A stretch of DNA of 64,000 nt. Origin: Oceaniferula marina. GTDB taxonomy: Bacteria; Verrucomicrobiota; Verrucomicrobiia; Verrucomicrobiales; Akkermansiaceae. The position numbers and the translations under genes were made by a program. Under the pieces are notes generated by a model. The model was given only the letters and a program-made list of their open reading frames with translations. It had not been told where the DNA came from and ran no database searches. Shown here piece by piece: positions 5,477-53,342 of the stretch (position 1 is its first letter; each line of letters starts with the position of its first letter). The stretch spans positions 347,104 through 411,103 of the forward strand of contig NZ_JACBAZ010000002.1 in the NCBI RefSeq assembly GCF_013391475.1, given 5' to 3'.

Positions 5477-5518
5477 ACTGCAGTTGAAAGTCAAAGGTCG
5501 AAAAGTCGCAAGCCCGAC

Positions 5519-5636: not shown

Positions 5637-6569
5637 ATGACAAACAAACTACTTATCCTAGGTGCCCGTGGTATGGTGGGCTCGGCACTTGTGCGTGCTG
5701 CCGAACAGCGTGGCTACAGCGATATTCTGCAGCCCCGTAGTAAAGATTTGGATCTGACAAATCAAGCGGCCACCCATGACTATCTGGCAGAGCAAAAACC
5801 GGATGAGGTGATTGTAGCTGCCGCCAGAGTCGGCGGTATCCATGCCAACAGCACCTATCCTGCTGAGTTTATCTATCAAAATCTGATGATTGCGGCCAAT
5901 GCCGTTGAAGGTGCATTCAAGGCTGGGGTTCCTCGCCTTTTATTCTTAGGCAGTTCGTGTATTTACCCCAAAATGGCGCCTCAGCCAATGCCAGAGGATT
6001 GCTTGCTCACCTCTCCCCTTGAACCCACCAATGAGGCCTATGCCGTGGCTAAGATCGCGGGCTTGAAGTTGTGTCAGTATTACCGACAGCAGTATGGTGT
6101 GCTCTATCACTCAGCCATGCCAACCAACCTTTACGGTCCCGGGGATAACTATCACCCGGAGAACTCCCACGTGATCCCGGCGATGATCCGACGCTTCCAC
6201 GAGGCCGTGCAGGCAGGATCCGAATCCGTCACCATTTGGGGGACGGGAACGCCAAAGAGGGAATTCCTTTATGTCGATGACCTTGCCGATGCCTGTTTTC
6301 ATCTTATGGCATTGGAGAACCCACCGGACTGGGTCAACGTCGGTTACGGTGATGATCTCTCGATCATGGACTTGGCCCGTGCCGTTGCAAACGCGGTAGG
6401 CTACCAAGGCATTATCGAGACCGACCCAAGCAAGCCCGACGGAACACCGCGGAAGTTGATGGATAACACCATTTTACAATCCCTCGACTGGAAACCCAGC
6501 GTGACGCTCGAACAAGGCCTCGCTACAGCCTATCAGTGTTTCCTCACCGAAGAGCGACGCGAGGTTTAG
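5637..6569 (+). CDS. fcl: GDP-L-fucose synthase
   Basis: 3,5-epimerase/4-reductase converting GDP-4-keto-6-deoxymannose to GDP-L-fucose. The chosen ATG gives 310 residues with the NADPH motif GARGMVG (9-15), SSCIYPK (106-112) and catalytic Tyr135/Lys139 in NEAYAVAK, followed by the family sequence [17 protein letters not shown]. The upstream frame to 5484 is made of repeat and was not used. It completes the pathway begun by gmd, implying fucose in the polysaccharide. Confidence 0.96.
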
Positions 6570-6575
6570 GAGTTT

Positions 6576-6630
6576 GGGAGTCTGGGAGTCTGGGAGTCTG
6601 GGAGTCTGGGAGTCTGGGAGTCTGGGAGTT
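6576..6630. repeat. Octamer array (GGGAGTCT)n after fcl
   Basis: Nearly seven copies of GGGAGTCT, the reverse complement of the AGACTCCC-type unit found before fcl. It starts 7 bases after the fcl stop and ends just before the ATG of the four-helix-bundle gene. Confidence 0.93.
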
Positions 6631-6633
6631 GAA

Positions 6634-6996
6634 ATGATGAAAACATTTGAAGATTGTCTGGTATGGCAAAAAGCTCGATTGCTAAACACGGCTGTTTATC
6701 GCGTGAGTAAAGGTGATGCTTTTTCCCAAGATTGGGCATTAGTTAATCAAATTAGGAGGGCTGCAGGTTCTGCGATGCATAATGTGGCAGAGGGTTTTGA
6801 TGCGGGGAGCGATGCCGAATTTAAACGATTTTTAAGATATAGCTTTCGTTCGGCAGGTGAAGTTCAGAGTCAACTTTACGCAGCTCTAGATCTTGAGTAT
6901 ATCGATCAAATTCAGTTTGATGAAATATACTCATTGGCTATCGAAGTCAAAAGCACATCCGCAGGTCTTATCAAATATCTCCACTCGCCTCAATAA
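6634..6996 (+). CDS. Four-helix-bundle protein (23S rRNA intervening-sequence protein family)
   Basis: Small helical protein of the S23/IVP family (about 120 residues). Family marks are an N-terminal WQKAR, QIRRAAGSAMHNVAEGFD, and FKRFLRYSFRSAGEVQSQLYAALD. The molecular role of the family is not established; members often occur inside rRNA intervening sequences or near polysaccharide genes. The start at 6634 or 6637 (two adjacent ATGs) follows the GGGAGTCT array; the longer frame from 6574 is repeat-derived. A close paralogue lies at 48139-48510. Both copies sit between repeat arrays. Confidence 0.88.
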   Translation: MMKTFEDCLVWQKARLLNTAVYRVSKGDAFSQDWALVNQIRRAAGSAMHNVAEGFDAGSDAEFKRFLRYSFRSAGEVQSQLYAALDLEYIDQIQFDEIYSLAIEVKSTSAGLIKYLHSPQ

Positions 6997-7006
6997 GCCG
7001 TCTAGC

Positions 7007-7217
7007 CTCCCGACTTCCTCGCTTCCTCGCCTTCTCGCCTTCTCGCCTTCTCGCCTTCTCGACTTCTCGCCTTCTCGACTTCTCGCCTTCTCGACTTCTC
7101 GACTTCTCGACTTCTCGACTTCTCGCCTTCTCGACTTCTCGACTTCTCGACTTCTCGACTTCTCGACTTCTCGACTTCTCGACTTCTCGACTTCCCAACT
7201 TCCCAACTTCCCAACTA
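7007..7217. repeat. Octamer array CTTCTCG(A/C), ~26 copies
   Basis: The longest pure array in the window. The unit varies at one base (CTTCTCGA or CTTCTCGC), then changes to CTTCCCAA in the last copies, ending 2-3 bases before the ATG at 7220. The open frames over it are repeat artefacts. Confidence 0.95.
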
Positions 7218-7219
7218 TC

Positions 7220-8299
7220 ATGAAACGTATCTTTGTATCCGGATGTTACGACATCATTCACGCTGGCCATCTACAGTTTTTCGAAGAAGCCCGAGCTCTT
7301 GGGGATCATCTCACGGTGAGCTTCGCTTCTGAAGATGTCCTTTGGCACCATAAACAACGACGTTCATCCATCCCCGATGAACATAAAAAAGCCGTGCTCG
7401 AAGGCCTGCGCATGATCGACGAAGTGATCATCGGTACCGACCATGATCTTGGACTCGATTTTAAAACGTATTTTCTCGATGCCAAACCGGATGTGCTGGT
7501 CGTGACCGAGGACGATCAATATGCCGATATCAAACAGGCATTGTGTGATCAAGTGGGGGCCACGTACCAGCGCCTACCCAAAACACCACCCAAATTTAAT
7601 CCGATATCAACCTCCGGGATCGTCAAGTGGGTCAAAGCACCAACCGAAGCTCCTCTGCGAGTCGATTTTGCCGGTGGTTGGCTGGATGTGCCACGCCATG
7701 CCAGAGACGATGGCTATATCGTAAACTGCGCCATTTCCCCACTGGTTAGTTTGCGCAGTTGGGACTACGAAAAACGATCCGGCCTTGGAGGGTCCGGTGC
7801 CTGGGCACTTTTGAATGGCGAGGATGGTGTGGATGCCGAACTCGATCTCGGAGTCGGCTGGCAAGACCCCGCTGTGATCCGTGAAACAGGTTTGTGTGTG
7901 TGGAAGAGTGGTCCGAAGCCGTTGCTCGACTTCAAACGCAATGGCAACATGCTGTCGGGTAAAATGGCTATCCTGTGGACAGGTTGCGAACACGATACCC
8001 CGGGTTTTGCCGATGATGCCAGGGACTATGATAAGATTGTGCAGTCCGGACAGTTGGCTCGTGAGGGTGTGCTCAACGAAGATATTCATCAACTTGCCGC
8101 AGGTGTGTATGTATACCATGAAATGCAGTTAGAAGAAGGGATGAAGCCGCTGCCGGAAATCGATGCGAGCATCGCGAAAAAATACTGCGGAGGTGGTCAC
8201 GGTGGTTATGCTCTCTACTTATTTGAATCGCAGGAAATGTGCGACCTGGCTGTGCAAGGAAACGAACAGCTCCGTGCGATTGAACCTTATTGCCTGTAA
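7220..8299 (+). CDS. Nucleotidyltransferase-GHMP kinase-like fusion protein
   Basis: 359 residues in two parts. Residues 1-140 form a cytidylyltransferase-like fold: HAGH (14-17) and ISTSGIV (129-135) are the HxGH and ISTS nucleotide-binding motifs of the glycerol-3-phosphate cytidylyltransferase/HldE-C group. Residues ~143-359 look like a GHMP sugar kinase: APLRVDFAGGWLD, the phosphate loop GLGGSGAW (188-195) and a C-terminal GGGHGGYALYLF. The kinase part is ~217 residues, well below the usual ~300-350. A plausible role is phosphorylation and nucleotide activation of a sugar such as a heptose or fucose; the substrate is unknown. An upstream in-frame extension to 6893 is repeat-encoded and rejected. 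Confidence 0.75.
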   Translation: MKRIFVSGCYDIIHAGHLQFFEEARALGDHLTVSFASEDVLWHHKQRRSSIPDEHKKAVLEGLRMIDEVIIGTDHDLGLDFKTYFLDAKPDVLVVTEDDQYADIKQALCDQVGATYQRLPKTPPKFNPISTSGIVKWVKAPTEAPLRVDFAGGWLDVPRHARDDGYIVNCAISPLVSLRSWDYEKRSGLGGSGAWALLNGEDGVDAELDLGVGWQDPAVIRETGLCVWKSGPKPLLDFKRNGNMLSGKMAILWTGCEHDTPGFADDARDYDKIVQSGQLAREGVLNEDIHQLAAGVYVYHEMQLEEGMKPLPEIDASIAKKYCGGGHGGYALYLFESQEMCDLAVQGNEQLRAIEPYCL

Positions 8300-11254: not shown

Positions 11255-11852
11255 AAACTAGGCCCACTACCTTGTAAGCCGCCCTTGTGTATCCTGCCCT
11301 TTCAGGGCGTTCACCGAATAGCATTGCGTGACCCTTGCAGCTGTTTGTATTCGACGTCACCGGAACGAGAGATAGCGAGGCCTCTAAGAAACTCTACCTC
11401 ATCTCCCTGATTGGTAAGATTCGTATGATTGGTGGTCCCTAATTAAGTTCATTTTTTATTGAACCAAAAATCAATTTACGCTTGGTTGGCATCCGCAGGC
11501 GGGAATTTTTTTCCTATTTGCGCATGATTCTTCATCTTTTTTCTTATTTTTCCCAAGGTTTTGGCTGTTTTTACGCCAATCGACCAAGGGCGGCAGCGTG
11601 AGAGGTGTTGTGGTGCGGGAGTGCGGGAGTGCGGGAGTGCTAAATTGCGGTAGTGTCGGTTCGTCGAACCGACAGCCGATGGCGAGGAGACCTTTACTCC
11701 GAAAAAGAGAACCCTGATAAAGCTCGAAATCCAAGACCGTATTGCCTACCAGAGCTTGTTTTCTGATCGAATCTTTGCGTCTTTGCGCCTTCGCGTGAAA
11801 TAAAATCAACGAAATCCTCTGTCTTCTGTCGTCTGTCGTCTGTTCTCTGCCG

Positions 11853-13721: not shown

Positions 13722-13870
13722 CCGCACTCCAGCACTCCAGCACTCCCCAACTCCCCAACTCCCCAACTCCCCAACTCCCCAACTCCCCAACTCCATCACT
13801 TCTATCCTTCGACCTTCGACCTTCGACCTTAGACCTTCGACCTTTGACCTTCGACCTTCGACCTTCGACT
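13722..13870. repeat. CTCCCCAA octamers and ACCTTCG heptamers before mntA
   Basis: Three GCACTCCA-like units, about six CTCCCCAA octamers (to ~13797), then about nine ACCTTCG heptamers (13806-13870), ending 3 bases before the ATG at 13874. Confidence 0.93.
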
Positions 13871-13873
13871 CCC

Positions 13874-14299
13874 ATGACTCCCGAACCTCCAACGAATGAA
13901 ATCGCTGAGCAGATTGCGGCGAGTGTTGAGAGCGTGCTGCATGGCGAACCCGAAATCAAACTCGTCATCTTGTATGGCTCGGTCGCTAGAGGGAAAATGC
14001 GCTGCAATAGTGATGTGGATCTTGCGGTTCTCTTTGATCATCCTTTGTCGGCTGAAGAGAAAATGAAGCTCGTTGAGAAACTAGCAGAAACTCTCGGTAA
14101 GGAAGTCGACTTGGTAGATCTGCACTCTCTGAATGGGACGATCCTCAGAAAAATCTTATGCGAGGGGAGGGTTATCTACAGGGATGGTTCCGGTAGTCTG
14201 GCCAGGCTTTTGCAGCGCATGATCTACAACCAGACAGATATGATGCCCTACACCCTACGTACACTCAAGGAACGCCAACGCACTTTTATTCATGGATAA
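13874..14299 (+). CDS. mntA: MntA-type nucleotidyltransferase antitoxin
   Basis: 141-residue minimal nucleotidyltransferase. The catalytic pattern GS-x10-DxD is visible as LYGSVARG (Gly35, Ser36) and SDVDLAV (Asp47, Asp49). In characterised MntA-HepT systems the nucleotidyltransferase AMPylates the HepT toxin to neutralise it. The gene overlaps hepT by 8 bp, which supports pairing. Start chosen at the ATG after the heptamer array; the frame upstream is repeat. The module sits between aepX and the phosphonate reductase gene and is bracketed by 39 bp direct repeats. Confidence 0.9.
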   Translation: MTPEPPTNEIAEQIAASVESVLHGEPEIKLVILYGSVARGKMRCNSDVDLAVLFDHPLSAEEKMKLVEKLAETLGKEVDLVDLHSLNGTILRKILCEGRVIYRDGSGSLARLLQRMIYNQTDMMPYTLRTLKERQRTFIHG

Positions 14300-14705
14300 A
14301 GCAGTGATTCTTAACAAGCTCGAAAGCCTTCGTCGCTGCGTGTTACGTGTCGAAGATAAGACTCCTCCCTCATTAGCCGGGCTTGTGAGTGACGCGGATC
14401 TTCAGGATATCATTGTGCTGAATCTCGAGCGCGCGGTTCAGACAAGTGTGGATATAGCCCTTCACGTGATCAGCCATCTGGATGTGACCCCGGCTGAGAC
14501 GATGAGAGGCTCTTTTGAAACATTGCGCGATGCGGGATACATCGACGCCTCCACTTGTACACGTATGACCAAAGCGGTAGGCTTCAGAAATGTCGCCGTG
14601 CACGCATATCAGGAGATTGATTGGGAGATCGTTTATATGATGATCACCAAAAATATGAACGACTTTCGTATGTTCGCTCAACAAATGAATGCACTCGTTG
14701 ATTAG
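14292..14705 (+). CDS. hepT: HepT-type HEPN ribonuclease toxin
   Basis: 137-residue all-helical HEPN protein. The active-site motif Rx4HxY is present as RNVAVHAY (Arg99, His104, Tyr106). This is the Tyr-containing form that MntA-type enzymes AMPylate. The HEPN fold and pairing identify it as the RNase component of a type VII toxin-antitoxin system. It ends 1 bp upstream of heptamer-rich DNA beginning with the right-hand direct repeat, so the cassette boundary lies right at its stop codon. Confidence 0.9.
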   Translation: MDKAVILNKLESLRRCVLRVEDKTPPSLAGLVSDADLQDIIVLNLERAVQTSVDIALHVISHLDVTPAETMRGSFETLRDAGYIDASTCTRMTKAVGFRNVAVHAYQEIDWEIVYMMITKNMNDFRMFAQQMNALVD

Positions 14706-14743: not shown

Positions 14744-14784
14744 GTTCTTAGTTCTTAGTTCTTAGTTCTTAGTTCTTAGTTCTA
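14744..14784. repeat. Heptamer array (TTCTTAG)n
   Basis: About five to six TTCTTAG units directly follow the right direct repeat. Confidence 0.9.
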
Positions 14785-42371: not shown

Positions 42372-43474
42372 GTGAACGTTCGGATATGTTATTGGTAGGG
42401 CAGACCCCGCCACCGTACCACGGGCAGGCCGTTGTTACAGCGATGCTGTTTGACCATGATTGGGGAGATCTCAAGGTGGAGCGCTTACGGATGTCATACA
42501 GTGATACGATTGATGCGGTGGGGAAAGCTGGCATTACAAAAATTATCCATTTGCTGTCTCTGATCCATAAGACGTGGTGGATCGCCTTGACCAAGCAGCC
42601 CCGGATTCTTTACTATCTTCCTGCGAGTGCGAATAGAGTGCCGGTAATACGGGATATTATTTATCTTGGTTTAGTAAGGTGGCTGTTTCCTAGGATTGTG
42701 TTTCATTATCATGCGGGAGGACTGCCGGAGTATGTGGCGTCAGCTGGTCTGTTAGGTAGGGTCGCTCAAAGGTTATATTACGATGCAGACCTGAGTGTTG
42801 AAATTTGCCGGACAAAGTATTCGCCGGGGCGGATTTTCAACGCGAAGAGAACAGAATACGTCGCTAATGGTTTAGATGTTGAGTTCGTTCCCCGTTCTCG
42901 CTTGGATAATGCAGAATTGCGGGTTCTTTTTCTCGGTGCATTGAATGAGGGCAAGGGGGTATTGGATGTTATTCGTGCCACAAGATTGGCTCGGGACGAA
43001 GGGGCACGTTTTCACGTGCACTTTATTGGAGCCTGGGCATCTGAAGACTTTCGGAGAGAGGCTGAGGCGTTGGTTGCCGCGAAATGTCTTGAAGAGGTGA
43101 TTCACTTTCCCGGAGTCAAAAAAGGGAGCGATAAGTGGCAAGCTTACGCGGATGCAGACCTCTTTATTTTCCCTTCCCATTACCAGTCGGAGAATTTTCC
43201 TCTGGTCTTGATTGAAGCAATGGCGTTCGGGTTGCCTGTGATTAGCACGACCTGGCGGGGTATTCCTCAGTTGGTAGGGGATAGTGGTGCTGCGATTCTT
43301 GCGGATGTGAATGCCCCCGAGCAATATGCGGAGGCGCTGTTACAGGTTACTCGAAACCTAGATCAAAGACAAGAGATGGGGACGGCGGCTCGAAAGCACT
43401 ATGAAGCTAATTATACGAGGGGGAAATTTGTGGAGAAGATGGAACAGGTTTTTAGGGAAGTCTTGAAGTCTTGA
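42368..43474 (+). CDS. GT4-family glycosyltransferase
   Basis: 368 residues, GT-B fold: VGQTPPPYHGQAVVT at the N terminus, VLFLGALNEGKGVLDVI, FPSHYQSENFPLVLIEAMAFGLPVIST with the EX7E motif. The ATG at 42368 overlaps the previous stop; a TTG at 42356 would be inside the upstream gene. The gene ends immediately before the octamer array at 43458-43522, which marks the right edge of the repeat-free island. Confidence 0.9.
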   Translation: MSERSDMLLVGQTPPPYHGQAVVTAMLFDHDWGDLKVERLRMSYSDTIDAVGKAGITKIIHLLSLIHKTWWIALTKQPRILYYLPASANRVPVIRDIIYLGLVRWLFPRIVFHYHAGGLPEYVASAGLLGRVAQRLYYDADLSVEICRTKYSPGRIFNAKRTEYVANGLDVEFVPRSRLDNAELRVLFLGALNEGKGVLDVIRATRLARDEGARFHVHFIGAWASEDFRREAEALVAAKCLEEVIHFPGVKKGSDKWQAYADADLFIFPSHYQSENFPLVLIEAMAFGLPVISTTWRGIPQLVGDSGAAILADVNAPEQYAEALLQVTRNLDQRQEMGTAARKHYEANYTRGKFVEKMEQVFREVLKS

Positions 43475-43522
43475 AGTCTGGGAGTCTGGGAGTCTGGGAG
43501 TCTGGGAGTCTGGGAGTCTGTT
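43458..43522. repeat. Octamer array (GGGAGTCT)n
   Basis: TTGAAGTC units overlap the end of the GT4 gene, followed by about five GGGAGTCT octamers, the same unit as after fcl. Confidence 0.92.
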
Positions 43523-43580
43523 GGATGCGCTGAATGACCTTCGGGCGTGAATATTCGCTGTGCTAAAGTTGCACAAGACC

Positions 43581-43665
43581 TTCAACCCTTCAACGAGGCG
43601 TAGCCTCATTCAACCAGGCCTTTCGGCCAATTCAACGATTTAACCATTCAACGATGCAAAGCATC
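43581..43665 (+). repeat. TTCAAC-hairpin site E (reaches a start codon)
   Basis: TTCAAC, TTCAAC, GAGGC-GTA-GCCTC (43595-43607), ATTCAAC, GGCC-TTTC-GGCC (43617-43628), TTCAAC, a decayed unit, ATTCAAC, and GATGC-AAA-GCATC (43653-43665). The last hairpin contains the ATG at 43654. Confidence 0.88.
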
Positions 43666-46077
43666 ATCATTATTCTAGCTTGCTTAGGCATGTTGCTTGC
43701 GGGCTCTCTTGGCATAACCTTGAGTGTACCTCTGCAGGCGCCTGCCGTGATTTTGTTGGGATTAGCAGCCATTCTGGCTGCGATCCAAGTTCTGAAGCCT
43801 GGAAGTGCGGGAGTGTGGGAGTCGAAAGTCAAAAGACAGAAAGTCCAGAACCCTAGCACTCTTGACAGCGGAAGGAAAAGTTGGTTGTTGGGGTTATCTC
43901 TGGGTTCAATTTTTTATTTTGTTGGACGGGCATGGTTTTCTCCGGTTTTTGATCTAGGGGTGGAGGACTTGATGTTGATTTTGCCCGCGTCAATTTTGTA
44001 TTTGGTCGCGGGTTATGGTATGAGGGGGAAATCCGGGGTGCACTTACGCATGGGCCTGGCGATTACCGTGATTGTTTTGTTACTGTTGCATATCGGTTCT
44101 TGTGTACTTCAGATAAAGGGAGGGGAGGGCTATTCTCTGACTCCCTTATTCACTGGAGCAGTGAGATCAAGTGATGGGCATGTCACGGGGATGTATGGCT
44201 ACTATGGCAGTTTTGCTAATTTCGCGGTGATCGCGGGATTGCTCTCCCTGAGTTTGGGAATATGGGGTAGGGGGGGCTTTGCTTCTCGTGGGGCATTGTT
44301 TTTATTTGGAGCACTGGCTCTGTCTTTAGCTGCCTATTCCCAATCGAGATCAGCGGTTATTAGTTTGATTCCATCTCTTTTTGTATTTATTATTTTGCTA
44401 ATGGTTTCGGTAGCAGGACAAACACCGAAAGTTAGAACAAGGGCGCGAATAGGAATGTGGGCTTTTGGTGGCGTTATCGCTTCAGTTTGTATAATTGGTG
44501 TAACATGGGTGTTCAGTGAACGAGCATTGCCGCAGGATCAGGATCAGGATTTGTTGGAATTGTTTTTTGCTGGAGGCGTTCGCGTGCCCTATTGGACCAT
44601 GGCTGTAGAGCAGTGGGCAGATTACCCTGTATTTGGTGCGGGATCTCGCAGTTTTTCATATCTTAGCTTTGAGTATTGGAGCTCGAATTTACCGACCGGT
44701 GAGGCAAATCCTGAATTTGTGCATAACGAATATTTACAGTTGCTTGCTGATTATGGTTTTGTAGGTTTAATATTGGTTATAGCTTTGCTGGTATGGCACT
44801 GTTTCTCCGGGTGTAAGCAAGTGCGTTTACTTGCTGGCAAAATACCAAGTGATGGTTTGGTGAGAGGTTTCAATGCGATAGCTTTAACTGTTGCTGGAGT
44901 CAGTGGGATGACTGCGATGGCGATGCATGTGTGTTTTGATTTTCGCACACACTTATTGGCAAATTTACTCTTGCTTGTTTGTTGTGCGATCTGGACCTTA
45001 CCTCTGGTAAGATCCAGAGTGCGGAAGTGCGGAAGTGCGGAAGTGCTAAAGTTGAATGGTGCAGAAGGCACTCAGCATGTCAAAGGTCAAAAGTCATCGT
45101 GTGGTCGCGATGGGAGAGCTTGGGGCCTAGGGGTGGTGTTATTGTGTTTAGGAGGTGGGGCAGTTGGTTTGGGGGGGCAGCAGCTTTGGACGGGGATGCC
45201 GTTGCTCAAAAATCAGATGGCGAAGGAAGATGGGGCCTGGGTTCCTCAGGATGTGGATCGCGATGTGTGGATTCCAGCCCTACAAGAATCGCTAGAGAGG
45301 GCTCCTCAGTGGCGGCGGTATCAGAGGCTGGCTACCTTGTATCGTTTAGAGGCAAGGGATGCTGCAGATGAAGATGAGAAGCTGCAAAACTTGTTGAGTG
45401 CGGAACAGGCGTATTTGGATTCGATTAGTCGTCATCCGTATAATCCGGTCTCCCGTATTAACTTGGCAGCAATCTACACTGAACAGAAACAGTGGCAGGA
45501 GGCTGATGCTATGTATGCATCAGCTTCAGACATGGCGAAAGCTCGTGAACGGTGGTTTAGGATGCATTCACAGTGGGGTGATATGCACGTACGCTGGGCT
45601 GTTGATTTATGGGAGAAAGAAGAAGTTCAGCAAGCAGAGGCTCAGTTCTTGCGAGCTAAAGAACGATATTTAAGTAGCTATGAATATGGGTATTTTTTCC
45701 AAAATAAGCAGTATGTCGTTGAGTATACTTCAGCTTTGCTGGTCTTCGCTCGTTTTCTCGATGCTCAGGAACGGTTCGATGATGCCGAGTTGCTGTTTCA
45801 GGAAGGAAAAAAGCAGGTGAACTGGTACAACTGGCAAACAGATACAGGCTTGCTTATGCACTATGCACAGCATTTGTATTTGAGAGGGCGTTATCTATGG
45901 GGACAGCGTAAGCCGGAAGAAGCTTACCAGCTAATGGTTAGAGCAGCTTCTTGTCTTAAACAATACCGTGGTGTGATGAAGGGAAATGTCGATCAACAAT
46001 GGCATAATCAGTTAGCTGAAATTCAAGAAGTCATCACCTTTCTGCAAAAAGCGGGTATTGCAAATGAAGTGAAATAA
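43654..46077 (+). CDS. O-antigen ligase/polymerase-like protein with TPR-like C-terminal region
   Basis: 807 residues. Several membrane helices surround a Wzy_C-type core: SRSAVISLIPSLF, VPYWTMAVEQWADYPVFGAGSRSF, HNEYLQLLADYGFVGL. The C-terminal ~300 residues are soluble and TPR-like (LATLYRLEARD, NLAAIYTEQKQWQEADAMY, EEAYQLMVRA). It should transfer or polymerise glycan in the periplasm. Two in-frame stretches derive from the tandem-repeat family: GSAGVWESKVKRQK (43800-43845) and VRKCGSAEVLKLNGAE (45014-45066). Each lies in a loop next to membrane segments. The start codon is inside a hairpin. Confidence 0.8.
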   Translation: MQSIIIILACLGMLLAGSLGITLSVPLQAPAVILLGLAAILAAIQVLKPGSAGVWESKVKRQKVQNPSTLDSGRKSWLLGLSLGSIFYFVGRAWFSPVFDLGVEDLMLILPASILYLVAGYGMRGKSGVHLRMGLAITVIVLLLLHIGSCVLQIKGGEGYSLTPLFTGAVRSSDGHVTGMYGYYGSFANFAVIAGLLSLSLGIWGRGGFASRGALFLFGALALSLAAYSQSRSAVISLIPSLFVFIILLMVSVAGQTPKVRTRARIGMWAFGGVIASVCIIGVTWVFSERALPQDQDQDLLELFFAGGVRVPYWTMAVEQWADYPVFGAGSRSFSYLSFEYWSSNLPTGEANPEFVHNEYLQLLADYGFVGLILVIALLVWHCFSGCKQVRLLAGKIPSDGLVRGFNAIALTVAGVSGMTAMAMHVCFDFRTHLLANLLLLVCCAIWTLPLVRSRVRKCGSAEVLKLNGAEGTQHVKGQKSSCGRDGRAWGLGVVLLCLGGGAVGLGGQQLWTGMPLLKNQMAKEDGAWVPQDVDRDVWIPALQESLERAPQWRRYQRLATLYRLEARDAADEDEKLQNLLSAEQAYLDSISRHPYNPVSRINLAAIYTEQKQWQEADAMYASASDMAKARERWFRMHSQWGDMHVRWAVDLWEKEEVQQAEAQFLRAKERYLSSYEYGYFFQNKQYVVEYTSALLVFARFLDAQERFDDAELLFQEGKKQVNWYNWQTDTGLLMHYAQHLYLRGRYLWGQRKPEEAYQLMVRAASCLKQYRGVMKGNVDQQWHNQLAEIQEVITFLQKAGIANEVK

Positions 46078-47330: not shown

Positions 47331-48074
47331 ATGGAAGATCATAAATCATTGACCTATCAGGATTTTTGGGAGATGCGTGCCCGCCAGTCGATTTGGGTGA
47401 CACGGAATGTAAGCTATAGAGCTGGAGCATGGATAGCTTTGCTTGCTAATCGCCTTGGAGTATCCCCTAATATGATATCTTTGATATCGGGCGGCATTAC
47501 TGTTGGGGCGGCTTTGATCGCTTTTGGCATGGGCCATGGAAACGTTATAGCAGGTCTGATATTGACTATTGGTTTGCAGCTTGGATACGCCTTTGACTGT
47601 GCGGATGGCCCACTTGCAAGAGCGACGGGAAAGGGAAGCAGTTTTGGTGCCTTATTAGACAAGTTGGTGGATTTGTCATCGGGTATGATCTTTCCCTGTA
47701 TTTTGGCATATAGTGTGGGGCATTGTTATTTTTTTGGAATTCCTTTTACAGTGAGGGTTTTGATTCTCGTTCTTATTTTACGAGTCTTTTTGAATGTGAT
47801 GTTATGGATTAAAGAGTTGGTCGTTTATAAAGCTGACCGTTTGAAGGTGGATCCGCGTATGCATAATGGTTGGTGGAAAGTAAAGAAGGCTGCCAGTATT
47901 TATATTGATGAACCTGTTTATAGACTGGCAATTGGTTTAGCATGGACATTTGGTTTTTTCTGGGAGTTTTTTGCTTTGTATCATGTGGGAGTTTTATTTC
48001 TAACGTTGGCATACTTACTATCATCTAAAAAAGAAATGGATGCGATGGATCGGGCGGCACGCCCTTCGGGTTAG
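47331..48074 (+). CDS. CDP-alcohol phosphatidyltransferase family protein
   Basis: 247-residue membrane enzyme. The family motif Dx2DGx2ARx8Gx3Dx3D is complete: Asp89, Asp92, Gly93, Ala96, Arg97, Gly106, Asp110 and Asp114. These enzymes move a phospho-alcohol group from a CDP-linked donor to another alcohol. Because AepX carries a cytidylyltransferase domain, this could use a CMP-phosphonate or CDP-alcohol to modify lipid or glycan; that link is an inference. About six membrane helices are visible. Confidence 0.85.
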   Translation: MEDHKSLTYQDFWEMRARQSIWVTRNVSYRAGAWIALLANRLGVSPNMISLISGGITVGAALIAFGMGHGNVIAGLILTIGLQLGYAFDCADGPLARATGKGSSFGALLDKLVDLSSGMIFPCILAYSVGHCYFFGIPFTVRVLILVLILRVFLNVMLWIKELVVYKADRLKVDPRMHNGWWKVKKAASIYIDEPVYRLAIGLAWTFGFFWEFFALYHVGVLFLTLAYLLSSKKEMDAMDRAARPSG

Positions 48075-48078
48075 GCCG

Positions 48079-48127
48079 CTGGAAGTTGAGGAAGTGCAGG
48101 GGTGCAGGGGTGCTTTAGTTCTTAGTT
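48079..48127. repeat. Short GGTGCAGG and heptamer tract
   Basis: Two GTGCAGGG units and a TTAGTTC tract lie between the phosphotransferase and the four-helix-bundle gene. Confidence 0.7.
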
Positions 48128-48138
48128 GGGAGGTTCTT

Positions 48139-48510
48139 ATGAGTATCACAAAATTTGAGGACATTACAGCTTGGCAGAAGGCTCGTGAACTTACGGGCAA
48201 GATTTACGAACAAACCCAATCCCCTGAATTCAGAAAAGATTTCGGGTTGGTTGATCAGATTCGCAGGGCATCTGGTTCGATTATGCACAACATAGCCGAA
48301 GGATTTGATGCAGGTTCAAATAAAGAATTTGTTCGTTTTTTGCGCTATAGCTTCCGCTCTGCGAGTGAAGTTCAAAGTCAATTGTATATTGCACTGGACG
48401 CTGGTTTCATCTCTGCTGAAAATTTTGATCAGCTGTATCAACAAGTGGTGGAGGTCAAAAAATTACTTGGAGGCTTCATCAAGTATCTGATCAATAAGAA
48501 TGTTACGTGA
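48139..48510 (+). CDS. Four-helix-bundle protein (S23/IVP family), second copy
   Basis: 123 residues, closely similar to the protein at 6634: ITAWQKARELT, FGLVDQIRRASGSIMHNIAEGFDAGSNKEFVRFLRYSFRSASEVQSQLY. GGGAGG at 48128-48133 gives this gene one of the few clear Shine-Dalgarno sites in the repeat-rich regions. The upstream frame to 48040 is read-through of intergenic sequence. It precedes the exosortase after a long octamer array. Function not established. Confidence 0.88.
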   Translation: MSITKFEDITAWQKARELTGKIYEQTQSPEFRKDFGLVDQIRRASGSIMHNIAEGFDAGSNKEFVRFLRYSFRSASEVQSQLYIALDAGFISAENFDQLYQQVVEVKKLLGGFIKYLINKNVT

Positions 48511-48513
48511 TCC

Positions 48514-48643
48514 TCAACTCCCGCACTCCCGCACTCCCGACTCCCGCCCTTCCACACTTCCACACTTCCACACTTCCGCACTTCCACACTTCCGCACTTC
48601 CGCACTTCCGCACTTCCGCACTTCCGCACTTCCGCACTTCCCC
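48514..48643. repeat. Octamer array (CCGCACTT)n before exosortase
   Basis: About 15 copies varying between CCGCACTC, CCACACTT and CCGCACTT, ending 13 bases before the ATG at 48657. Confidence 0.94.
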
Positions 48644-53209: not shown

Positions 53210-53260
53210 GTATCTACAAGATGAGTTGGTGGAGTTGGGAAGTGAAGTTGTGAGGTTGAC

Positions 53261-53342
53261 CCGCACTCCCGCACTCCCGCACTCCCGCACTCCCGCACTC
53301 CCGCACTCCCGCACTCCCGCACTCCCGCACTCCCGCACTCCC
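53261..53342. repeat. Octamer array (CCGCACTC)n before the sugar transferase
   Basis: Ten near-perfect copies, ending 4 bases before ATG 53347. Confidence 0.95.

Follow-up and report, generated by a model that had tools for sequence, protein, structure and literature searches.

Rickettsia palindromic elements are palindromic hairpin DNA that is inserted in frame into proteins at tolerant sites. Four further systems are close to the repeats described here, each given as in the available parts of the report cited. The intervening sequence in the 23S rRNA of Coxiella is an S23p element with tandem heptamers before the S23p start, in two or three copies depending on the strain, and its inverted ends make a 28-bp stem (PMC4990558). 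The heptameric G-rich simple repeats of Xanthomonas and Nostoc are intergenic and their function is unexplained (PMC4692102), and TAACTGA direct repeats occur in Beggiatoaceae, Cyanobacteria and Bacteroidetes with no mechanism evident (PMC4679880). The amino-acid tandem repeats of Borgs are encoded within open reading frames (ORFs) by units whose lengths are all multiples of three and which only very rarely recur at another site (PMC9879509). Here we analysed a stretch of 64,000 nucleotides from Oceaniferula marina (contig NZ_JACBAZ010000002.1, positions 347,104 to 411,103 of the forward strand; the window), in which a gene for an O-antigen-ligase-like enzyme carries tandem-repeat segments in frame. 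These segments are probably in-frame pieces of a local dialect of 7-8-base arrays that colonised the polysaccharide/exosortase operon, with local copying and an origin of the arrays as ends of S23-type elements as the inferred steps. Positions without a contig label are those of the window, the window genome is called G000 and the window's contig C2.

Array segments in two loops of a ligase-like protein

The frame at 43654-46077 on the + strand is open over 807 residues, with no stop. The protein was assigned to the Wzy_C/O-antigen ligase family (PF04932, residues 220-376, E=2.1e-15, 57.2 bits against a cut-off of 31.7) and is polytopic with 12 hydrophobic segments, and weak TPR matches were found in its C-terminal region. 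Two insertions lie in the gene:

43798..43878, + strand: loop 1 insertion (about residues 49-75), GTGCGGGAGTGTGGGAGTC and then AAAGTC-type words, in frame
45010..45123, + strand: loop 2 insertion (about residues 453-490), octamer array 45018-45046 plus CAAAGGTCAAAAGTC, in frame

A sequence-only reading of this DNA had reported repeats at both places and these were confirmed: GTGCGGGAGTGTGGGAGTC spans 43805-43823 in loop 1 (its position had been given as about 43803) and three GTGCGGAA units occupy 45019-45042 in loop 2, both in frame. The GTGCGGAA units are within an array called by Tandem Repeats Finder (TRF) at 45018-45046 (3.6 copies, 100% match, score 58). The period of this array is 8, i.e. 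not divisible by three, and CAAAGGTCAAAAGTC is at 45081-45095, again in frame.

A homologue of the ligase was found in 40 of the 58 genomes searched, its own genome included. Loop lengths were counted between fixed alignment columns (loop 1, residues 44-78; loop 2, residues 450-508). Loop 1 was 35 residues long here and 77 in the metagenome-assembled genome (MAG) G009; G003 and G005 had 23 residues and the 14 remaining rows that cover the loop had 13-15. Loop 2 was 59 residues long here as compared to 32-49 in 16 other rows (42 in G009 and 43 in G003). The array segments lengthen the two ligase loops relative to the array-free homologues compared. The alignment, which the sequence-only reading had proposed as a check, showed the segments to be lineage-specific with shorter loops in the array-free homologues, and the same residues, named there as the finding that would speak against it, were not found in repeat-free genomes among aligned homologues of which only few were close enough to compare residue by residue. 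When 21 named homologue loci were checked, in-gene arrays of period 7-8 were present only in the G009 gene (L093) and in L099; the homologue at L112 had two in-gene arrays, both of period 9.

Residues 50-73 and 453-485 had a predicted local distance difference test (pLDDT) score below 50 (AlphaFold2, seven sequences, mean pLDDT 78.1). This places both segments in predicted disordered loops next to membrane helices, in agreement with the soluble loops by membrane segments read from the sequence earlier. The net charge was +5 for loop 1 and +6 for loop 2, and because of this positive charge the positive-inside rule suggests that both loops are on the cytoplasmic side. No hairpin signal was detected in four loop segments (folding z -0.52 to +0.32), and with the folding signal absent the loops were rejected as the hairpin scar of a complete element.

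Two further repeat tracts were found 5' of the ligase, the second read from the sequence:

43459..43520, + strand: AGTCTGGG array, 7.8 copies, which takes in the stop codon (43472-43474) of the glycosyltransferase gene upstream
43579..43653, + strand: pyrimidine-type repeats CCTTCAACC and ATTCAAC with small palindromes, reaching the ligase ATG

At 43579-43667 the ATTCAAC-type words are interleaved with the small palindromes GAGGCGTAGCCTC, GGCCTTTCGGCC and GATGCAAAGCATC, and the ligase start codon sits in the last of these.

Array words of the gene cluster and of two orthologues

The occurrence of such arrays by chance was assessed by running TRF over 527 ORF interiors (618,456 nt of C2, after removal of the first 40 and last 20 codons). 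Three arrays of period 7 or 8 with a score of at least 50 were found, and the ligase loop 2 array was among them. One of the others, in ORF 6893-8299, precedes ATG 7220, the start of the part with the domain (Pfam match beginning at residue 115), and one lies in a 145-residue ORF (C2:342802-343236) that is doubtful as it was not accepted by the codon-usage caller. Shuffling the codon order of the 527 interiors yielded 0 such arrays in 30 replicates.

Along 800 kb of C2, TRF called 33 arrays with a period of 7-9 and a score of at least 50. BLAST of these arrays against the same 800 kb identified one further interior-coding place, ligase loop 1; the control with reversed arrays likewise identified one interior-coding place, which was unrelated. 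When the two G000 loops were compared by BLAST to the 800 kb, all matches were within the window. The loop 2 array shares 29 identical bp with an array on the other strand 3.5 kb away, the first of the following:

48517..48641, + strand: ACTTCCGC array, 15.8 copies, 7 bp past the stop of a four-helix-bundle gene of the S23/IVP family and 5' of an exosortase gene
53260..53342, + strand: 10.4 copies of CCCGCACT, which is the loop 1 word in reverse complement; the array stops 5 bp short of an ATG
11613..11843, + strand: intergenic arrays of GTGCGGGA (11613-11640) and of TCTGTCG (11818-11843), two words that are also present in loop 1 of the G009 orthologue

ACTTCCGC is the reverse complement of the loop 2 word. 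The loop segments use words that other arrays of this cluster or genome have too. The vocabulary that the sequence-only reading had recognised in the ligase was upheld as far as the words match those of the cluster arrays, but it is not genome-wide: 18 of the 19 GTGCGGRA doublets in the 5.07-Mb genome fall within C2:358716-400441 (42 kb, inside the window) and 25 of the 33 arrays fall within C2:342967-402141, the polysaccharide/exosortase cluster. The words were also local in a comparison of 55 loci, 35 of them with 7-mer arrays, in which 7-mer units agreed, with no more than 1 mismatch, in 40 of the 57 same-locus pairs over 1 kb apart as compared to 128 of 2404 pairs between loci.

These results bear on ordinary microsatellite birth, in which each loop's array grew from a chance seed by polymerase slippage, in tolerant loops only and with no copying between sites. 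The in-gene arrays are short (3.6 copies), disordered loops tolerate arrays, and the 7-8 bp units resemble heptamers elsewhere that are prone to slippage, as described in the available part of one report (PMC4692102). We nevertheless judge this origin unlikely, given that the unusual words of the loops recur at few other sites of the genome, that codon-shuffled genes yielded no array of such size and that units more than 1 kb apart are far more alike within than between loci.

None of the 33 TRF arrays lies in the middle glycan block of the window (about 16-43 kb). This block (about 16119-43474) is compact, has a lower G+C content (0.40-0.52 per gene) and is array-free up to 43459, while both of its flanks are array-rich. 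It may be a recently exchanged cassette.

In-frame arrays were found in this enzyme in three species, the window species, that of MAG G009 and Rubritalea profundi, with words that are partly different and periods of 7 and 8 in G009 and 7 in R. profundi. Loop 1 of G009 opens with the same GSAGV codons as the window gene and the word GTGCGGGA, followed by CAGACGA heptamers. Because of these shared codons a single origin of the loop 1 insert of G000 and G009 is likely; the tree leaves the branching of G000, G009 and G003+G005 unresolved. In the G009 genome CGTCTGTCGTCTGT is confined to a stretch 82-116 bp 3' of the domain of the four-helix-bundle gene at C7:159800 and, in inverted form, to loop 1 of the ligase; it was counted 0 times in G003, G004, G005 and G012 and once in G000. 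GTGCGGNAGTGCNG occurs in G009 within loop 1 of the ligase and at C19:39326, next to a four-helix-bundle gene that is broken. This gene (C19:39326-39640) has one internal stop and an adjoining octamer array and is about 6 kb from the G009 ligase. In R. profundi SAORIC-165, whose orthologue is 31% identical in the best segment, loop 2 contains a long insert of AGAGGAA/AGAGTTC heptamers with no stop. Each of the eight strongest self-shifts of this insert (153, 96, 240, 144, 57, 192, 48 and 249) is a multiple of 3, which suggests that the frame was kept by selection.

Surface-glycan ligase-type genes are classic contingency loci, and gain or loss of one 8-bp unit would shift the frame, turn the ligase off or on and result in phase-variable glycans. 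The gene is a surface-glycan ligase with a unit length that is not a multiple of 3, and some internal shifts of G009 loop 1 are not multiples of 3 either. Such switching is improbable here, as the array has 3-4 units only, fewer than many intergenic arrays of the cluster, and the R. profundi insert seems to have grown by multiple-of-3 blocks, as expected of selection on the frame. It also appears improbable that the repeat-derived positive loops are useful in themselves, for partner binding or topology, with the repeats a merely convenient source of residues. The arrays are in the same two loops of three species and the loops are strongly basic in composition, but insert-free homologues are intact and common, sequence and length vary widely across the three species, and predicted order is low. 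That a mis-joined or collapsed repeat put array sequence into the gene is barely credible. The assembly of the window genome is a draft in 88 contigs, and arrays pose difficulties for assembly, but the gene has an unbroken frame and short arrays only, both of these loops carry arrays in the G009 orthologue too, and R. profundi SAORIC-165, a named strain, is a third case.

Arrays around S23/IVP genes

The window contains two four-helix-bundle genes of the S23/IVP family with arrays beside them, one of which is followed by the ACTTCCGC array given above:

48040..48510, + strand: S23/IVP four-helix-bundle gene; domain match 48157-48471, PF05635 E=1.5e-34, phmmer to 2gsc E=1.4e-11
48094..48113, + strand: short array of GTGCAGGG (2.5 copies) on the 5' side of the domain match
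6574..6996, + strand: second S23/IVP four-helix-bundle gene; domain match 6649-6954, PF05635 E=2.3e-27
6569..6629, + strand: GGAGTCTG array that brackets the second four-helix-bundle gene on its left
7011..7210, + strand: CGACTTCT array of 24.9 copies that brackets the same gene on its right and stops 10 bp short of ATG 7220

The assignment to the family rests on PF05635 scores of 120.4 and 97.4 bits against a cut-off of 33.8. Both copies are located among polysaccharide/exosortase genes and so are not 23S rRNA intervening sequences, no rRNA search having been made. The bracket pair of the 48040-48510 copy differs from the inverted complement at 3 of 8 positions.

Bracketing at other loci was scored with a threshold of a TRF array of period 6-9 and score of at least 40 within 250 bp of the gene, and the loci were the best-scoring PF05635 match per genome, hence not random members of the family. 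One set of 40 loci was made up of 39 PF05635 matches taken by rank with a start beyond 9 kb and one G000:C4 window, leaving out matches in already chosen windows or already used stretches. It overlaps a 30-locus set of relatives, which includes G000 and G009, while a phylum-wide 30-locus set of other Verrucomicrobiota has no genome in common with the relatives. An array within 250 bp was detected at 19 of the 40 loci, with a density of 12.6 per 10 kb there as compared to 0.26-1.15 farther out, at 15 of 30 in the relatives and at 18 of 30 in the other Verrucomicrobiota genomes (28 of 29 arrays with period 7). Control genes at the same threshold gave 0/30 for PIN and 2/30 for the Y1 transposase (Y1_Tnp). 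Using tblastn, 20 plasmid records, mostly of cyanobacteria, were identified and 15 of these were analysed (three further Riemerella, a second Calothrix brevissima and one further Nostoc sp. ATCC 53789 were omitted). All 15 plasmid loci had an array within 250 bp, with 17.0 versus 1.67 arrays per 10 kb. No tblastn match to the four-helix-bundle genes was found in 50,697 phage records.

The orientation of the brackets was assessed on the nearest array per side with a TRF score of at least 36, resulting in 30 pairs, one of which had unequal periods and was dropped. The 5' and 3' units were reverse complements (at most 1 mismatch) in 22 of the 29 equal-period pairs; over 2000 permutations this count averaged 2.24 and never exceeded 7. 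Over the 30 pairs the purine fraction was 0.73 for upstream units and 0.32 for downstream units, which are pyrimidine-rich. Arrays of period 7-8 often bracket S23/IVP genes, mostly in inverted orientation, in Verrucomicrobiota and on cyanobacterial, Bacteroidota and Azospirillum plasmids.

The four-helix-bundle genes were located between operon genes, for example between cas6 and cas4 on two cyanobacterial plasmids. On plasmids of Pseudanabaena, Picosynechococcus and Anabaena (L276, L283 and L288) they lie co-directionally in CRISPR-Cas operons. In two of these species the gene is in the cas6/cas4 gap (type I-D) with different array words, and in the third it is in a cas10/Cmr3-family gap. A gene trio on Nostoc plasmids, matched by order and DNA similarity, was empty at L286, had the four-helix-bundle gene in one gap at L274 and had it in the other gap at L279. 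The long frame at L272, considered as a fusion of element and neighbour, looks like a stop-free antisense frame instead.

In the window, the ORFs at 5484, 6893, 9702 and 48507 extend back over stop-free pyrimidine-rich arrays. The likelier starts are the ATGs 9-16 bp past the array (5637, 7220, 9729 and 48657), and the automatic start calls may be too long; at these ATGs the arrays occupy the usual ribosome-binding region. A nucleotidyltransferase/HepT pair at 13844-14705 (Polbeta PF18765 and HepT-like PF01934), probably a toxin-antitoxin module, comes directly after two arrays (13742-13869) and before a third (14744-14783). At 1-298 there is a 124-bp tandem repeat (2.4 copies, 96% match) that is unlike the 7-8-mers in kind.

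A proposed origin and comparison with described systems

A local origin of the ligase segments could be pictured as follows. The arrays would be the ends of small S23-type elements that settle between operon genes. Array DNA would be copied from there to nearby places by template switching or gene conversion, and the copies would then grow and shrink by slippage. Copies borne by a gene would persist only with an open frame and in a protein that tolerates a flexible positive stretch, here in two probably cytoplasmic loops, and larger frame-keeping duplications could extend an insert inside the gene. Evidence for growth by such blocks is mixed, as the eight strongest R. profundi shifts are all multiples of 3 and those of G009 loop 1 are so only in part. 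The sequence-only reading had the repeats insert or spread as blocks. The 29-bp identity and the G009 word at one other locus favour spread of words over independent birth, but do not single out insertion of whole blocks, since local copying with subsequent slippage and duplication of blocks would explain the segments just as well. More tentatively, S23/IVP genes may be the core of widespread, as yet unnamed tiny mobile elements that occupy operon gaps and have inverted, locus-specific array ends, with a protein that helps to make or spread the arrays.

Several observations weigh against the proposed local origin. At the bracketing threshold, 21/40, 15/30 and 12/30 of the Verrucomicrobiota four-helix-bundle genes had no array, and 7 of the 29 bracket pairs were not clear inversions, three of the 7 being direct. 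Some equal-unit pairs come from related genomes so that the 29 pairs are not fully independent, and the 57 within-locus dialect pairs stem mostly from few loci. Many arrays have no four-helix-bundle gene nearby, among them most of those in the cluster, six outside it and those of an R. profundi locus. A profile search for four-helix-bundle relics at these orphan arrays (800 kb of C2, and C19) detected only the known copies, and no decayed four-helix-bundle gene was found at one R. profundi array locus either. The R. profundi word AGAGTTC recurs at two loci, neither of them beside its five PF05635 genes, of which three have two-sided arrays, one of these in the same and not the inverted orientation. 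The four-helix-bundle genes as the sole source of the words were not upheld in R. profundi. In the ligases, the loop arrays are one-sided and without hairpin potential and so are no scars of a complete bracketed element, loop 2 also has a 17-bp match on a C3 stretch, and four other segments of the protein likewise had pLDDT below 50. G009 loop 2 has a weak heptamer array (score 44) and is not longer than that of G003 (42 versus 43 residues), and the five strongest self-shifts of G009 loop 1 are 60 (the best) and 81, plus 67, 74 and 53, which are not multiples of 3.

Intergenic heptamer and octamer arrays of bacteria have been known for years without a mechanism, and the tie to S23/IVP genes provides a concrete candidate for their maker or mover. 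If the reading as mobile elements is true, the long-unexplained heptamer repeats of cyanobacteria, Xanthomonas and Verrucomicrobiota and the in-frame microsatellites of the ligase would be footprints of a class of S23 elements. As the arrays are in frame in the same enzyme of three species and the unit is not a multiple of three, the limits of what proteins tolerate can be read directly.

Unlike Rickettsia palindromic elements, the ligase loops lack any hairpin signal. The Borg repeats are similar in that tandem DNA repeats within ORFs result in disordered stretches, often in membrane proteins (PMC9879509), but the units here are 7-8 bp, not divisible by three as in Borgs, and are shared between sites. 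The TAACTGA repeats are likewise intergenic heptamer arrays in unrelated phyla, with words that are often mixed and a few arrays in ORFs; that study concerns one word only, and its main text contains none of the terms S23, four helix, intervening and 23S rRNA (PMC4679880). The Xanthomonas/Nostoc repeats share the 7-bp units in intergenic gaps and, judged by eye in the window, may also share the orientation rule (G-rich on the coding strand after a stop and on the non-coding strand before a start). They differ in having a single consensus word per genome, as compared to many local words here, and within ORFs they are under-represented on the coding strand, the location of the ligase arrays; four-helix-bundle genes are not mentioned in connection with these heptamers in the available part of the report (PMC4692102). 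The Coxiella intervening sequence resembles the loci here in its S23/IVP gene, in the heptamers 5' of the start (strain-variable in Coxiella) and possibly in its complementary ends, but is located in an rRNA gene and excised by RNase III, whereas the S23/IVP genes here are among protein-coding genes with locus-specific array ends (PMC4990558). We found no report in the open-access papers searched that ties intergenic arrays to S23/IVP genes beyond this Coxiella observation. Among the systems compared, as far as the available parts of the reports go, heptamers and an S23 gene are joined only for Coxiella, and none of them takes this further, to arrays in intergenic or coding DNA; the tie would link the heptamer repeats of intergenic regions to rRNA intervening sequences and to microsatellites within genes.

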